Source of the DNA: a virus
Strand: one strand, 5' to 3'
DNA length: 20,436 nt
Virus record (IMG/VR): IMGVR_UViG_3300036770_003082
Location: 1 to 20,436 of that record
Part shown: one piece after another, positions 9,234-19,941 of the stretch
How the letters are laid out: the number at the start of each line of letters is the position of its first letter
How positions within the stretch are numbered: position 1 is the first letter of the stretch
Program-made: the position numbers and the translations under genes
The notes under the pieces: model-generated
Database searches by the model: none
What the model was told of the DNA's origin: nothing
The model's input: the letters and a program-made list of their open reading frames with translations, nothing else

Positions 9234-9980
9234 TTAAATATAACTTTTTTTATTCCACATTAATTTTCTATATCCAGAATTAAACATTGTTCTTACTTTA
9301 TTAGTAATCATTTTTACTTTATCATTTTCTACTTGATCTCTAATAATTTCAGAAACAAAATCTTGTCTCATAAAAGGAATAACTTGAACCAATGGCGTAC
9401 CCCTATGGATGTATCCCTTAAAATCTTTTTTAACTAAAAAGGATAAAAGTCCATCTGATGGATATCCATCTATATCTATAACTGCAGCAATAGCATACAA
9501 AGGAGAAACTTCATGGTGTTGCGGTTGAATAAACAAAGCACTAACGCCCCTGCTGCCTTTTGCTACCCAAATAGGATTTATTCTAAATATGTGCTCTATA
9601 TATTGATCCTTATCTATAGGATATCCTTCTACCTGCTTCATATCATGATTACCAATCATTGGCTTTATTCCAAGATTTGAAAAACCCTCTAATGATTTTG
9701 GGATTTGAAATATTTTTTGTCCATTAGTAGTATCAATATATATATCAAAAGGTGCTTTAATTATATATCCACTTGAAAGCATATCTAAAAATGCTACACA
9801 TCTTTTTACTGTTAATCTTTGCATACCGTCGACTGGGGTATCGTCATTATTATAAAATGGCATTACTTTTTTAAACCATGAAGGTATTTCTTTAAATGCT
9901 GGAACTGGTTCTGGAAATAAATCTACATTTTTTGGCATTGTAGATATAAAAGAAATCTTAGCAGATTTTTTATCACTCAT
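9234..9980 (-). CDS. Phage protein of unknown function (PSWFKK...GTPLVQVIPF type)
   Basis: A 248-residue protein with no signal peptide or membrane segment. Visible landmarks are EIPSWFKKVMPF (31-42), KRCVAFLDMLSSGYIIKAPFDIY (59-81), FIQPQHHE (150-157), and near the end FKGYIHRGTPLVQVIPF (187-203). This combination recalls a recurrent phage family of unknown function, possibly related to the DUF6065 type, with a beta-rich core and a conserved ...GTPxxQVIPF strand. I could not confirm the family. The C-terminal 35 residues are basic and helical (VKMITNKVRTMFNSGYRKLMWNKKS). The ATG lies 6 bases after TGA-TATACT, so the gene is probably leaderless and separately promoted from the adhesin gene upstream. 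It lies just upstream of nrdJ. No function is assigned. Confidence 0.75.
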   Translation of the reverse strand: MSDKKSAKISFISTMPKNVDLFPEPVPAFKEIPSWFKKVMPFYNNDDTPVDGMQRLTVKRCVAFLDMLSSGYIIKAPFDIYIDTTNGQKIFQIPKSLEGFSNLGIKPMIGNHDMKQVEGYPIDKDQYIEHIFRINPIWVAKGSRGVSALFIQPQHHEVSPLYAIAAVIDIDGYPSDGLLSFLVKKDFKGYIHRGTPLVQVIPFMRQDFVSEIIRDQVENDKVKMITNKVRTMFNSGYRKLMWNKKSYI

Positions 9981-10006: not shown

Positions 10007-10513
10007 CTATACTTGTGTATCAGGGCGATCAAATACTAACATTTTTGTAGTGAAAAAGTTATCATATGGTTCACAGTTAATTGAAACTTTATCTAAATTC
10101 ATATAAATCATTTCTACCAAAGAAATGTCAACAAAAGAATTTGTTTCTGGAGAGAAAATTTTATATGATGTATCAATGTCTACTGCTTTAATAAACTTAG
10201 TAGCCTGTCCTTTTTGAACAAGAACATAGTGAGACTTAGAGAATAAATCTCCATCAATATATACAAACTCGTCTTCTGTTGCAATATCTATAGCAACAAT
10301 TTGAGTTTCAACCCTGTTTGACTCATCAAGACTTATTGTTGACGAATCTACTTCCCACTCAATCCAATCCGTATTTGAAGGATTAGGAATATCTAATGCC
10401 AACAAAGTGTCTCCTACCTGAAGTTCTCCTGCTGTTTTTGTAGAACCTGGAACTCCTGCAGTTAAAACTTCAGTTAATATGCTAATTGAATTATAGAAAG
10501 CAAAACCTCCCAT
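10007..10513 (-). repeat. Hint-domain direct repeat, copy A
   Basis: This segment encodes GGFAFYNSIS through the C-terminus. It is similar at both protein and DNA level to 18187-18687, in the same orientation about 8.2 kb away. For example, both contain the identical 20-mer TCATATGGTTCACAGTTAAT (near 10061 and 18244). Recombination between the copies could delete, duplicate or exchange the intervening genes. Confidence 0.75.
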
Positions 10514-11398
10514 AGGAGCAAAACTAAATGATGGAGAAAATACGAATGCTACGAATGCACCAAACATTGGTGTAAAACTAAACGCTCCGAATGCTCCAAA
10601 GGCTCCAAATGGTGTAAAACTGAAGGCTCCGAATGCACCGAATGGTGTAAAACTGAAGGCTCCGAAGGCACCGAATGGTGTAAAACCAAATGGTGTGAAA
10701 CCGAAGGCACCGAATGGTGTAAAACCAAATGGTGTGAAACCGAAGGCACCGAATGGTGTAAAACTGAATGGCACAAAACTAAATGGTGTAAATGTAAATG
10801 TTGTCACTGTGCCAGAATTTGCTGATGTTCCAGAAGATCCATTACCATTATCTGCTCTAACATTATATGTTTGCTGTGATCCAGCCTCTTGGTTTACAGT
10901 TACTGATGTATTTGCAGTATTTCCAGACTTTCCATCTGATGATGTCCAATAATAATTTGTAATAGCCTTGCCACCATTATTTGGTGCTGACCAGGAAACT
11001 GTATCCTGTGCTGTGCCATTAACAGTAGATGCTGATGGAGCAGATGGAGTTGCTGGTACAGTAGTTGCTGTAGTTGCTGGAGCATTTACTCCTGAAGATT
11101 CTCCATAAGAGTCATATGCTTTTACTGTATATGTATATGATGTGCCACCCGACAATCCAGTTATTTGTGCAGTATTTGTTGGATGTGCAACAGTTGCTTT
11201 AAGAGTAGCACCATCATATACCTTGTATCCTGTTGGTGTATTTCCTGCTGTTGGATTAGTCCATGACACATTAATTGCACCATTACCAAACGCTCTACCA
11301 GTTCCTACATCTGATGCAGTTACGTTAGTAACATTGTTTGGTCCAATAAAGTTATCCTGTGCTGAGGCCTTTAGACCTCTTTTTCTTGCTTGTGCCAT
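10007..11398 (-). CDS. Modular phage adhesin: two FN3 domains, FTPFG repeats, C-terminal Hint-like domain
   Basis: A 463-residue protein. Residues about 22-110 and 115-200 are fibronectin type III-like beta sandwiches (AINVSWTNP...TGYKVYDG...ITGLSGGTSYTYTVKAYD; DTVSWSAPNNGGKAITNYYWTS). Residues 201-298 are a low-complexity tract of Phe-Thr-Pro-Phe-Gly and Phe-Gly-Ala units. Residues about 304-463 match a Hint (hedgehog/intein) fold: candidate nucleophile Ser304 in NSISILTEV, the GELQVGDTLLALD strand, His390 in DLFSKSHYVL, and CEPYDNFFTTKMLVFD at the end. The usual C-terminal His-Asn is replaced by Phe-Asp. The final 160 residues closely match those of the 584-residue protein at 18187-19941. 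A good Shine-Dalgarno (AAAGGAG) lies 7 bases before the ATG, 22 bases after the 645-residue fibre gene. The protein probably sits on the tail and contributes to host recognition. Self-cleavage is possible but unproven. Confidence 0.75.
   Translation of the reverse strand: MAQARKRGLKASAQDNFIGPNNVTNVTASDVGTGRAFGNGAINVSWTNPTAGNTPTGYKVYDGATLKATVAHPTNTAQITGLSGGTSYTYTVKAYDSYGESSGVNAPATTATTVPATPSAPSASTVNGTAQDTVSWSAPNNGGKAITNYYWTSSDGKSGNTANTSVTVNQEAGSQQTYNVRADNGNGSSGTSANSGTVTTFTFTPFSFVPFSFTPFGAFGFTPFGFTPFGAFGFTPFGFTPFGAFGAFSFTPFGAFGAFSFTPFGAFGAFGAFSFTPMFGAFVAFVFSPSFSFAPMGGFAFYNSISILTEVLTAGVPGSTKTAGELQVGDTLLALDIPNPSNTDWIEWEVDSSTISLDESNRVETQIVAIDIATEDEFVYIDGDLFSKSHYVLVQKGQATKFIKAVDIDTSYKIFSPETNSFVDISLVEMIYMNLDKVSINCEPYDNFFTTKMLVFDRPDTQV
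10505..10798 (-). repeat. FTPFG/FGA repeat tract
   Basis: It encodes about 98 residues made almost wholly of Phe, Gly, Ala, Thr, Pro and Ser in units such as FGAFGFTPFGFTP and FGAFGAFSFTP. All repeat lengths are multiples of three, so copy-number change would alter protein length without a frameshift. Confidence 0.85.
10677..10754 (-). repeat. Perfect 39-base tandem duplication
   Basis: Bases 10677-10715 and 10716-10754 are identical 39-mers, each coding for a 13-residue FTP/FG unit. A diverged partial copy continues on each side. Perfect identity at synonymous positions indicates very recent slippage or unequal recombination. Confidence 0.9.
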
Positions 11399-11420: not shown

Positions 11421-13358
11421 TTAAGCAGTTAAGTCGCCCATTACTACCCATGTATCTGTTGCTCTCTTAAATAGAGTTGCAGAAGACCATTGAGTACGTA
11501 ACTTTAGACCTGGTGTAGCATTTACTGTCACGCCAGAAGCGCCAGCAATTGTTACCTGTCCAGCGCCAGTTTGAAGAATATCAATAGATGTTCCTACTGG
11601 ATATGCTACTGTAGCATTTGTTGGAATTGTAACAGTTTGAGCAGTTGCCTTACCCATTTCAATTAATGAATCTCTTTCTGTCAATGCTGAAAGAGTATAA
11701 GAATCTGTCTTTTGAGAAATTGGTGTGCGTGATGCAACACCTTCCTTTGTTTGTGTACCATCTGTAAAAGCAATTCCTGATGCTGCTACAGTTACTGTTC
11801 CAGTAAATGTAGGAGAGGCAAGAGGAGCCTTGAGTGCTAGTGAGTTTGTAACTGTTGATGCAAAGTTAGCATCATCACCCAATGCTGCAGCGAGTTCATC
11901 AAGAGTATTTAATGCTCCTGGTGCTGATGCAATTAAATCGCTTACTGCGCCAGTTACGAACTCTGTTGTAGCAATTTGAGTTGTATTTGTTCCTGCAGTT
12001 GCAGTTGGGGCAGTTGGAGTTCCAGTAAGTGCTGGAGAAGCCAATGGCGCCTTTAGTGCAAGATCTGAAGTTAAGTCAGTAACATCTGCTTGTGCAACTG
12101 CTGCAGAAGAAGACAATACTCCAGAGGAGTCTGTCTTAACATATCCTGCAGTTGAAAGTGGGGCTGTTACTGTTCCAGTAAATGTTGGTGAAGCAATTGG
12201 TGCATAAGTCGATGCTGCGGTTGCAGATGCCAACTTAGAATCAATTTGAGTTTGAATTGAAGAGGTAACACCGTCTAGATATCCCAATTCTGTTGAAGAG
12301 ACATCCCCTATTGAAGTAGTTGTTGGAAGTGTTACAGTTCCAGTAAATGTTGGACCTGCAAGAGGAGCCTTATCGTTAAGGCTATCTGTTAGCCCATCAA
12401 TTTTTCCTTGTGATATGGCAGCAGTTGTTGAAATATCTGTATCTACAATTGTTCCATTTTCAATTTTATCAGAAGTAATTGACCCATCTGCAATTTTTGA
12501 GGTAGTAACATTAGAGTCTAAAATTTTTGCAGTTGTTACAGCATCATCTGCAATTTTTGCAGTAGTTACTGTACCATCTGTAGGGGTTCTTGTGTCAGAC
12601 AATCTTGAGTCATTTGTATATACTAAATCTGCAGTATTTGTTATACCGTGAACTGATGTTGTTTCATCAGCATGTGATGATAGATCTGTTACATATACTA
12701 AATCTGCAGTATCGCTAATGCCGTGAACTGATGTTGTAACGCTATTATGTGTTCCAACAGCGCTATCTGCATAAGATTTTGTTGCTAATAATGTTGTATC
12801 TGGAATTCCATGTACATCTGTTGTGTCGGAATTATGTCCAGACAAATCTGCTGTTAAAACTAAGTCTGTTGTATCTGCTATACCGTGTACGTTGGTTGTT
12901 ACATTTTTGTGTGTAGTAACGGCACTGTCAGCATAAGACTTTGTTGCTAGTTCTGCCACATCTGTAATTCCATGAACGTTTGTTGTTGCACTTTCGTGAT
13001 TAGTAAATGCTGTCAATCCAGCCTTTTGAGAAAGTGCATTTGTAATTGTTGTAGCAAATGAAGAGTCGCTATCAATAGCCAATGCTAGTTCATTTAAAGT
13101 ATTAAGTGCTGCTGGTGCTCCAGCAACCAAATCACTTACTGCTGTAGCAACCTTTGAATCAATTGTAGATTCAATTGCTGCTGTATCAAAATCTGATGAA
13201 TCTGCGAAGTAGGAGAGAGCAGACCATGCAGATGAACCATTACCCATCTTGAACTTGCCTGTGTCAGTCTCAAATCCGATTTCTCCTGCTGCTAAAATAG
13301 GGTTTGCAGATGTCCACTGTGCTGCGGTTCCTCTGCGCTGTTGCATTCTTGTTGCCAT
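11421..13358 (-). CDS. Tail fibre protein with Mtd-type N-terminus, VHGI repeats and GDLTA C-terminal domain
   Basis: A 645-residue protein. Residues 5-50 (QQRRGTAAQWTSANPILAAGEIGFETDTGKFKMGNG...) are the attachment module common at the start of phage fibres. Residues 120-240 contain five VHGI motifs at 128, 157, 182, 211 and 236. Residues 262-310 carry four to five TTAKIxD-type decamers. PLAxPTFTGTVT-type repeats follow near 332, 388, 438 and 512, interspersed with APAALNTLNELA-type helices. The last 100 residues form a compact domain ending TDTWVVMGDLTA that is shared with the truncated gene at the right edge. The composition is that of a trimeric beta-structured fibre. The gene has a good Shine-Dalgarno (AAGGAGAG) and an extended -10 about 45 bases upstream. 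It probably forms a fibre that displays or carries the adhesin encoded next. Confidence 0.85.
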   Translation of the reverse strand: MATRMQQRRGTAAQWTSANPILAAGEIGFETDTGKFKMGNGSSAWSALSYFADSSDFDTAAIESTIDSKVATAVSDLVAGAPAALNTLNELALAIDSDSSFATTITNALSQKAGLTAFTNHESATTNVHGITDVAELATKSYADSAVTTHKNVTTNVHGIADTTDLVLTADLSGHNSDTTDVHGIPDTTLLATKSYADSAVGTHNSVTTSVHGISDTADLVYVTDLSSHADETTSVHGITNTADLVYTNDSRLSDTRTPTDGTVTTAKIADDAVTTAKILDSNVTTSKIADGSITSDKIENGTIVDTDISTTAAISQGKIDGLTDSLNDKAPLAGPTFTGTVTLPTTTSIGDVSSTELGYLDGVTSSIQTQIDSKLASATAASTYAPIASPTFTGTVTAPLSTAGYVKTDSSGVLSSSAAVAQADVTDLTSDLALKAPLASPALTGTPTAPTATAGTNTTQIATTEFVTGAVSDLIASAPGALNTLDELAAALGDDANFASTVTNSLALKAPLASPTFTGTVTVAASGIAFTDGTQTKEGVASRTPISQKTDSYTLSALTERDSLIEMGKATAQTVTIPTNATVAYPVGTSIDILQTGAGQVTIAGASGVTVNATPGLKLRTQWSSATLFKRATDTWVVMGDLTA

Positions 13359-18186: not shown

Positions 18187-18687
18187 TTACACATCACTGT
18201 CTGGTCTGTCAAATACAAGCATTTTAGTTGTAAAGAAGTTGTCATATGGTTCACAGTTAATAGATACCTTATTTAAATTCATATAAACAACTTCTACTAA
18301 CTGAATATCTATAAAAGAATTTGTTGTAGGAGAGAATATTTGGTATGTTGTATCAATATCTACCGCCCTAATAAATTTAATAATATTATCTTTCTTGACT
18401 AACACATAGTGTGATTTAGAAAATATATCTCCATCAATGTAAATAAAATCATCTTCTGGAACAATATTAATAGATACAATCTCTGTTTCAACTACATTAT
18501 CTTCAGTAAGATTTAGATTAGAAGATTGCCACTGAGTCCAATCTATATTTTCTGGATTTGGTATATCTAACGCTCTTAGTTTATCTCCTACTTTAAGTTG
18601 TCCTGCTGCCTTAGAAGATGTTGGAGAACCAGCAAGCAAAACCTCTGTAGTTACTGAAATAGAATTAAAGAATGCAAATCCACCCTG
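18187..18687 (-). repeat. Hint-domain direct repeat, copy B
   Basis: This is the partner of 10007-10513. Both encode GGFAF(Y/F)NSIS...FDRPD with few gaps. The identical block IDGD(L/I)FSKSHYVLV and the identical CEPYDNFFTTKMLVFDRPD show strong conservation. The copies are in the same orientation. Confidence 0.75.
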
Positions 18688-19941
18688 TGGAGTAAATGAA
18701 AATGCTCCTGGTGTAAAGTTAAATGATGGTGTAAAGTTAAATGCTGGTGTAAAGGAAAAGGCGTCAGGCGTAAATCCAAATGGTGTAAAACTGAAGGCCC
18801 CAAATGGTGTAAAACTAAATGCTGGAGTAAATGTAAATCCAGTACTGCATGATTGTGAATCTTCCTCTATATATGGAATACAATTTCCTCCTACAAGTTC
18901 ATAATTAGTTCTTGTTCTGGTTTGCGTTCCACCAGAGCATGTTCCCCATGCACTCCATGACCCTGGCTCTGGACATGGGTTGCTTGCTGGAGTAAATGTA
19001 AAGGCTGGTGTAAATGTAAAGGCTGGAGTAAAACCGAATGGTGTAAAGGAAAATGCTGGTGTAAATCCAAATGGTGTAAAGGAAAAGGCTGGAGTAAAGT
19101 TAAATGTTGGGGTAAATGTAAATGTTCCAGATCCTCCGCATGACGTAGTGTTTGCCTCTATTAAATTGCCAAAGCCTACAAATGTTGACTGGCAACTTTC
19201 ATATGTTCCACCGCAGTTTCTTCTTCTAGGTTGATAAATTCCCTCATATGTATCTTCTCCATTACATGTTGGAATAATTACTGTGTCTCCATAATCCTCA
19301 CAATCTCCGCAAGGACTTGGTGTAAAGGAAAAGGCTGGTGTAAAGGTAAAGGTTGGTGTAAATGTAAATGTTCCAGCACATGGTACACCTTCTCCGCCAC
19401 TTCCTCCGCAACTACTCACATTTGATGAGATACACTCTCCAAAACTGACAAAGGTTGCAGATGTACAATCTACCCAAGTACCACTACCTGCTGGGCACTC
19501 TTTTCGTGTTTTTGTATAGTTTCCAACATATACGTCTTCTCCATTACAGGTTGGCTGAGTAAAGTTATACTCTACACAATCTCCGCAAGGTTGCGGGGAT
19601 GGAGTAAACCCAAATGGTGTAAAGCCAAAGGCTCCAAATGGGGTAAAGTTAAATGTTGGTGTAAAGCCAAATGGAGTAAAACTAAATGATGGTGGCTCTA
19701 CATAATACTCATATGTTTTAAAATTAATGGTTGTTTCATAATCAACTAATGTATTAAAGTTTATATTTTGATAAGAAACCCTATTCGCTAAATTTGAATT
19801 TTCTGTTTGATCAAGTCCAATAAAGTTTGGAACTAGTCCATTTGCTACTAATGTTGCTTCTGCCTCTAACTGAGTTAATCCGCTTAAATCTGGAACTGTT
19901 ACCATTCCTTTGGATGACCATCTACCTATCCAATAAGTCAT
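18187..19941 (-). CDS. Modular phage adhesin: PASTA-like, Cys-rich modules, TSP1-like, FTP repeats, Hint-like domain
   Basis: A 584-residue mosaic. Residues 13-82 resemble a PASTA domain (VTVPDLSGLTQLEAEATLVANGLVP), a fold known to bind peptidoglycan stem peptides. Two related Cys-rich modules lie at 118-181 and 210-272: both start CGDC, contain PTCNGED, and end SSCGGSG or TSCGGSG. A thrombospondin-1-like module lies at about 326-366 (GSWSAWGTCSGGTQTRTRT...C). Four FTP/FTPFG tracts (85-114, 190-208, 273-318, 369-418) act as linkers between them. Residues 427-584 are the Hint-like domain: Ser427 in NSISVTTEVLLAG, LKVGDKLRALD, His511 in IFSKSHYVL, and CEPYDNFFTTKMLVFD. This is the counterpart of the 463-residue protein's C-terminus. 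The gene follows a fibre gene by 7 bases without a strong Shine-Dalgarno, so coupling is likely. A host-surface adhesin is the best inference. Confidence 0.75.
   Translation of the reverse strand: MTYWIGRWSSKGMVTVPDLSGLTQLEAEATLVANGLVPNFIGLDQTENSNLANRVSYQNINFNTLVDYETTINFKTYEYYVEPPSFSFTPFGFTPTFNFTPFGAFGFTPFGFTPSPQPCGDCVEYNFTQPTCNGEDVYVGNYTKTRKECPAGSGTWVDCTSATFVSFGECISSNVSSCGGSGGEGVPCAGTFTFTPTFTFTPAFSFTPSPCGDCEDYGDTVIIPTCNGEDTYEGIYQPRRRNCGGTYESCQSTFVGFGNLIEANTTSCGGSGTFTFTPTFNFTPAFSFTPFGFTPAFSFTPFGFTPAFTFTPAFTFTPASNPCPEPGSWSAWGTCSGGTQTRTRTNYELVGGNCIPYIEEDSQSCSTGFTFTPAFSFTPFGAFSFTPFGFTPDAFSFTPAFNFTPSFNFTPGAFSFTPQGGFAFFNSISVTTEVLLAGSPTSSKAAGQLKVGDKLRALDIPNPENIDWTQWQSSNLNLTEDNVVETEIVSINIVPEDDFIYIDGDIFSKSHYVLVKKDNIIKFIRAVDIDTTYQIFSPTTNSFIDIQLVEVVYMNLNKVSINCEPYDNFFTTKMLVFDRPDSDV
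18688..18837 (-). repeat. FTP repeat tract 4 of the 584-residue adhesin
   Basis: About 50 residues of FSFTP, FNFTP and FGFTP units leading directly into the Hint-like domain. The base-level unit is about 15 bases (a GGTGTAAA-type word on the plus strand), always in multiples of three. Confidence 0.8.
18988..19125 (-). repeat. FTP repeat tract 3 of the 584-residue adhesin
   Basis: About 46 residues, including two consecutive AFSFTPFGFTP units and AFTFTP doublets, between the second Cys-rich module and the TSP1-like module. Two further short tracts lie at 19318-19374 and 19600-19689. Confidence 0.8.

Follow-up and report, generated by a model that had tools for sequence, protein, structure and literature searches.

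A serine-type, putatively non-splicing Hint domain fused to phenylalanine-rich adhesins of uncultured phages

From conserved motifs and predicted structure, we identify a serine-type, non-splicing variant of the Hint domain (Ser-Hint) that is fused to phenylalanine-rich phage adhesins. Judged by these motifs, the domain keeps the N-terminal apparatus of Hint chemistry and lacks the C-terminal one. With moderate confidence, we favour a reaction in which an N-to-O acyl shift at Ser304 would be followed by cleavage or transfer of the adhesin on the N side of the domain. Ser-Hint proteins are surface proteins of environmental phages and form a large, uncharacterised family, with two members in the DNA analysed here, an IMG/VR viral record of 20,436 bases (the window). 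The window carries genes for a head maturation protease, a portal protein and a ribonucleotide reductase, and also encodes tail-fibre-like proteins and a lysozyme-like protein. The nearest matches of its head maturation protease, at 42% identity, are from Streptomyces phages of ~130 kb, which makes an actinobacterial host likely.

The host proteins and the Hint fold

The two Ser-Hint domains of the window, which are 71% identical, belong to a 463-aa protein and a 584-aa paralogue. The features concerned, all on the minus strand, are these:

9234..9980 (-): phrog_7084 protein, downstream of the Ser-Hint gene
10007..11398 (-): 463-aa phage surface protein with two fn3/Ig-like domains, a Phe-rich linker and a C-terminal Ser-Hint domain (ORF; fn3 by Pfam, E 1.6e-9; full-length AF2 model)
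10799..11338 (-): pair of fn3-like beta domains, residues 21-200 (Pfam; AF2 pLDDT ~88-97)
10490..10798 (-): Phe-rich low-complexity linker with FTPFG/AFG repeats, residues 201-303 (composition; AF2; tandem DNA repeats)
10487..10492 (-): Asn303-Ser304, presumed scissile bond (by alignment with Hint block A)
10028..10489 (-): Hint domain, residues 304-457 (AF2, Foldseek, hhalign)
10229..10240 (-): block B, S387-K-S-H390, TxxH equivalent (family alignment)
10073..10075 (-): Cys442, block F
10028..10033 (-): Phe456-Asp457, at the terminal His-Asn position (family alignment)
11421..13358 (-): tail-fibre-like protein directly upstream
18187..19941 (-): 584-aa paralogue with an N-terminal PASTA module, Phe-rich segments and a Ser-Hint domain (ORF, Pfam, alignment)
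18208..18663 (-): Hint domain of the paralogue, with Ser427, S508KSH511, Cys563 and F577-D578 (sequence)
19714..19902 (-): PASTA domain of the paralogue (Pfam E 8.3e-7, above the cut-off)

Both proteins are best explained as phage surface adhesins in which an fn3 or PASTA module is followed by a disordered Phe-rich linker and a Ser-type Hint domain. The linker of the 463-aa protein is 36% F, 16% G and 12% P, is made up of tandem DNA repeats and is predicted to be disordered (residues 201-300, pLDDT 31-59 in the full-length AF2 model). The first-pass annotation had placed the protein among virion adhesins, and the context agrees: tail-fibre genes adjoin it, fn3 and PASTA modules precede the Hint domains, and homologues are annotated as virion structural or tail proteins. 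The upstream tail-fibre-like cluster is represented in 115 of 131 loci and the downstream phrog_7084 protein recurs in 97, overlapping loci included in both counts. The phrog_7084 protein also has relatives in haloarchaeal tailed viruses.

Positions 10007-10513, which encode residues 296-463, had drawn attention earlier; the last 160 residues were read as Hint-like and an AlphaFold comparison with Hint structures was proposed. That comparison returned a Hint fold. An AF2 model built from the domain and its relatives (56 rows) reached a mean pLDDT of 88 and a pTM of 0.82, with most of the domain above 90 and low values restricted to the upstream linker and the tail. The C-terminal domain was likewise confident in the full-length AF2 model. 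The best 50 Foldseek matches in the PDB were all Hint structures, led by Tetrahymena BIL2 (6y75, E 2.5e-7) and the Ssp DnaB intein (1mi8, 3.2e-6), with a Clostridium thermocellum BIL (7.2e-6) and Hedgehog (1at0, 1.4e-5; also 6tyy) among those that followed. Furthermore, the family profile matched that of a Pfam-recognised jumbo-phage Hint domain with a probability of 98.6 and an E-value of 8e-16 (hhalign). The features that characterise the Hint superfamily are present: the predicted fold, Cys or Ser at position 1, and T/SxxH in block B, with Val as its first residue in five rows. Predicted structure and profile comparison thus strongly support a true Hint domain.

A search of the 463-aa protein against Pfam and NCBIfam gave no Hint match, and a PDB sequence search matched only the fn3 region and, weakly, block A. 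When the family profile was compared with the 2lwy sequence by itself, the block-A stretch was the only part aligned (probability 35). No listed family member exceeded the curated cut-off of the Pfam Hint models PF07591, PF13403 and PF14890, the best score among those listed being 24.3 bits against the 35.8 needed for PF14890. In viral models, Foldseek matched proteins of uncultured phages that bear the names 'Hint', 'PASTA' or 'Fibronectin type III'; members of the family have therefore already been deposited under other names.

Conserved residues and the predicted reaction

Relatives were gathered by three pattern scans of viral contigs, one of which yielded 195 confirmed stretches, 80 of them kept. 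After merging, and with the window's two domains excluded, there were 91 distinct relative domains, comprising ~80 Ser-Hint relatives and 11 from jumbo phages. Mean column identity across the family alignment is 47%. Two of the scan patterns included the INCEPYDN/NCEPYDN motif and the third included His390, so that the invariance of both is partly a matter of ascertainment; none covered Ser304, whose invariance is free of this bias. Loci recovered solely by the His-containing pattern still have Cys442. Patterns from the block-F/G motif alone found no relatives in bacterial and archaeal genomes. A literature search that covered few subscription papers found no description of the family, and we found no proteomics for the uncultured phages that carry it.

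Blocks A, B (SKSH) and F/G were all located where the first-pass annotation had claimed them, block A reading S304-I-S-I-L-T-E-V-L...L-x-V-G-D and block F/G INCEPYDNFFTTKMLVFD in the 463-aa protein. Position 304 is Ser in all 81 Ser-family rows that cover it, and its counterpart is Cys in all 11 canonical relatives. The serine is encoded by TCA in 55 cases, TCT in 17, TCC in 4, TCG in 4 and AGT in 1; as every TCN codon is in use, besides a single AGT, it is the residue and not the DNA that is kept. His390 occurs without exception across the family rows, and position 387 is Ser or Thr in 88 of 93 and Val in the remaining 5. Alignment and invariance therefore bear out the placing of Ser304 at the nucleophile position and of His390 as the block-B histidine. 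The canonical rows combine Cys at 304 with Thr at 387, His at 390, Val at 442 and a terminal His-Asn. This His-Asn is replaced in the Ser family, mostly by an aromatic residue, Lys or Leu followed by Asp or Glu, and usually by aromatic-Asp; in the 463-aa protein it is Phe456-Asp457, as had been noted. Only ~3-12 residues follow this position, and with His-Asn lost the earlier view that the domain does not splice is supported.

Block F departs further from the canonical pattern. Its usual Asp is replaced by Ser, Thr or Ala and its usual His by Asp, so the active site is non-standard. Position 442 is Cys in 80 of 80 Ser-family rows and Val in 11 of 11 canonical Cys1 relatives. The invariant cysteine is found only together with Ser1, and we know of no other Hint class that has one at this position.

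The residue before Ser304 varies across the family (Y, N, G, D, F, E, H, W and others), and the residues preceding the serine are common only to paralogues of one genome. A conserved GGFAF(Y/F)N-S junction had been proposed; it is shared by the window's two paralogues and does not extend to the family. Behind the unconserved linker, conservation sets in at Ser304, a position that fits a cut site.

The first acyl shift is used alone by some Hint domains, and either Cys1 or Ser1 works in class 1 inteins (PMC7664689). B-type BIL domains, which are without the C-terminal motif, cleave on their N side (PMC7765530). In Ser-Hint, the N-terminal apparatus is present and the C-terminal one absent, and cleavage or transfer at Asn303-Ser304 would thus be expected. 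Once the protein has folded, Ser/Thr and His of block B may activate the Asn303-Ser304 bond, upon which Ser304 would attack the preceding carbonyl in an N-to-O acyl shift. Either water or an external nucleophile could then resolve the resulting ester, and the adhesin with its linker would part from the Hint domain by release or by transfer. Asn cyclisation being impossible and a C-extein absent, the chemistry would end at this N-terminal step. Conservation and fold make these steps plausible. In our view, Ser-Hint most likely acts as a C-terminal maturation domain which leaves once the adhesin has been made or placed, as intramolecular-chaperone auto-cleavage domains do on other phage fibres, transfer to an acceptor being our second choice. 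If cleavage is real, widespread uncultured phages mature or anchor their adhesins by intein-type chemistry halted after its first step, with serine in place of cysteine, and Ser-Hint would be a natural C-terminal Hint domain that forms an ester.

It is possible, though rather unlikely, that the domain is unreactive and serves as a folded cap, an oligomerisation unit or an attachment point. The loss of His-Asn and of the block-F Asp and His, the change of Cys1 to Ser and the unusual block-F cysteine would all suit such a role. Nonetheless, the catalytic Ser304 and His390 never vary, despite a mean column identity of 47% and freely varying synonymous codons, and a mere scaffold need not retain both.

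We consider it unlikely that the ester is instead used for attachment, with a nucleophile of the virion or host envelope attacking it so that the adhesin becomes covalently bound, as Hedgehog does to cholesterol. The presence of one linker-Hint cassette on two different adhesins per genome (see below) fits a common acceptor or partner, but is also compatible with plain duplication or gene conversion. Moreover, the few residues after the Hint domain contain neither a sterol-recognition region nor another domain that could bind an acceptor, and inspection of the alignment found no conserved Asp where Hedgehog has Asp303.

A class-3-like route, in which Cys442 would attack the N-terminal bond directly and Ser304 be secondary, draws on the Ser-family-specific invariance of that cysteine but is highly improbable, for class 3 inteins carry a Trp-Cys-Thr motif (PMC7664689) and have no Ser or Cys at position 1, whereas Ser304 is invariant, the aligned Cys lies three residues later at another block-F position, and the Trp and Thr positions do not match.

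Comparison with known Hint and fibre systems

Among isolated phages, homologues are distant and confined to jumbo phages of Erwinia, Dickeya and Yersinia. A tblastn search of phage isolates with the window Hint domain alone gave no match, and these homologues were reached with the paralogue and divergent relatives as queries. They are PT-HINT domains (PF07591) of Alexandravirus-type phages (Erwinia pEa_SNUABM_33, Dickeya AD1 and a virion structural protein of Yersinia fHe-Yen9-02), and the Erwinia homologue scores above the PF07591 cut-off. Like Ser-Hint, they are C-terminal on a structural protein and adjoin tail-fibre genes, and they are annotated as virion structural, tail or hypothetical proteins. 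Unlike Ser-Hint, they keep Cys1, THEH and His-Asn and have Val at the Cys442 position. The one homologue examined throughout has a collagen-like stalk with repeats in place of the Phe-rich linker.

Ser-Hint resembles B-type BIL domains in having an N-terminal nucleophile and a block-B motif while lacking the C-terminal splicing motif, and differs in its Ser nucleophile, phage adhesin context and invariant block-F Cys. B-type logic appears to suit Ser-Hint better than that of Hedgehog, the comparison being by which motifs are kept and which are absent. The absence of the C-terminal His-Asn sets the domain apart from A-type BILs, and that of both the terminal His-Asn and a C-extein Cys, Ser or Thr from class 1 inteins.

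The first-pass annotation had proposed a possible Hedgehog-type self-cleavage, a label that finds no support in its specific features. The fold (1at0, 6tyy), the C-terminal position and the lack of His-Asn are shared with the Hedgehog Hog/Hint domain. Hedgehog additionally has Asp303, Cys400 and a sterol region (PMC9163320). In Ser-Hint, the sterol-recognition region is missing, the nucleophile is Ser and not Cys, and Cys400 has no counterpart; inspection of the alignment showed no conserved Asp in the region of Asp303. By our alignment, the Cys400 position would be Asp in Ser-Hint. Cys442 was considered as its counterpart and rejected, since Cys400 aligns to the terminal Asn position.

A functional analogy is offered by T5 pb1 and the K1F endosialidase, whose C-terminal chaperone/auto-cleavage domain removes itself at a Thr-Ser bond with a Ser nucleophile (PMC4690869). 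Those fibre domains differ from Ser-Hint in fold and use Ser-Lys type chemistry.

The linker-Hint cassette and its neighbouring genes

Eight co-genomic pairs were compared. In seven, identity between the Hint domains is 64-98% and the final linker residues agree, while the N-terminal parts are distant or unrelated (20-38%); the exception, L026, disagrees at 43%. Several of the seven pairs come from closely related genomes, leaving about five independent cases. On the tree, the PASTA label requires at least seven changes on well-supported branches. Since co-genomic Hint domains and junctions are alike, N-termini differ and the PASTA label changes, linker and Hint domain act as one cassette on different adhesins. 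Two adhesins of one genome, L043 and L046 (contigs 3300043570_002078 and 3300034168_000196), have Hint domains that are 98% identical to each other and at most 57% identical to any from another genome, which suggests that the cassette was recently duplicated or underwent gene conversion.

The Ser-Hint domain is preceded by a disordered linker of ~30% Phe, and 2OG-Fe(II) oxygenase genes neighbour it in 71 of 131 loci (overlapping contig copies included). PF13640 was confirmed in three of these oxygenases. The window's own 20 kb record contains no such gene. The comparison took in 65 distinct linkers that have 5 kb or more of sequence downstream, and oxygenase genes were counted within 6 kb. Oxygenases accompanied 0 of 22 linkers with 0-2 Pro per 70 residues, 8 of 14 with 3-8, 8 of 13 with 9-15 and 16 of 16 with at least 16, the last group averaging 4.4 oxygenase genes. 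Oxygenase number and linker proline correlated with a Spearman coefficient of 0.80, and independent contrasts on the Hint tree gave r 0.40 (sign-randomisation p ~0.011). Phe, Gly and Hint proline had no comparable effect in the contrasts, nor N-terminal proline in the raw test. The bins and the 6-kb span were chosen post hoc, the FFPP linker type is largely one clade, and clade effects are only partly removed; we treat the association as a lead and not as a result. It points to a candidate substrate for phage 2OG-Fe(II) oxygenases, which are without a known target. A further, quite unlikely scenario is that of hydroxyproline-bearing aromatic 'glue' adhesins, whose Phe/Pro linker would be modified by the prolyl-hydroxylase-like neighbours and whose product Ser-Hint would free or attach through its ester. 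Loci including L058, L054, L055, L064 and L172 have one to seven oxygenase genes downstream within 6 kb.

A third linker type precedes the Hint domain in L242, L244, L237, L053, L069 and their relatives. It is rich in Gly, Phe, His and Tyr, with almost no proline (for example GFYHGFGHGYGG and GFSHYAGF), and is reminiscent of the coacervating proteins of squid beak.
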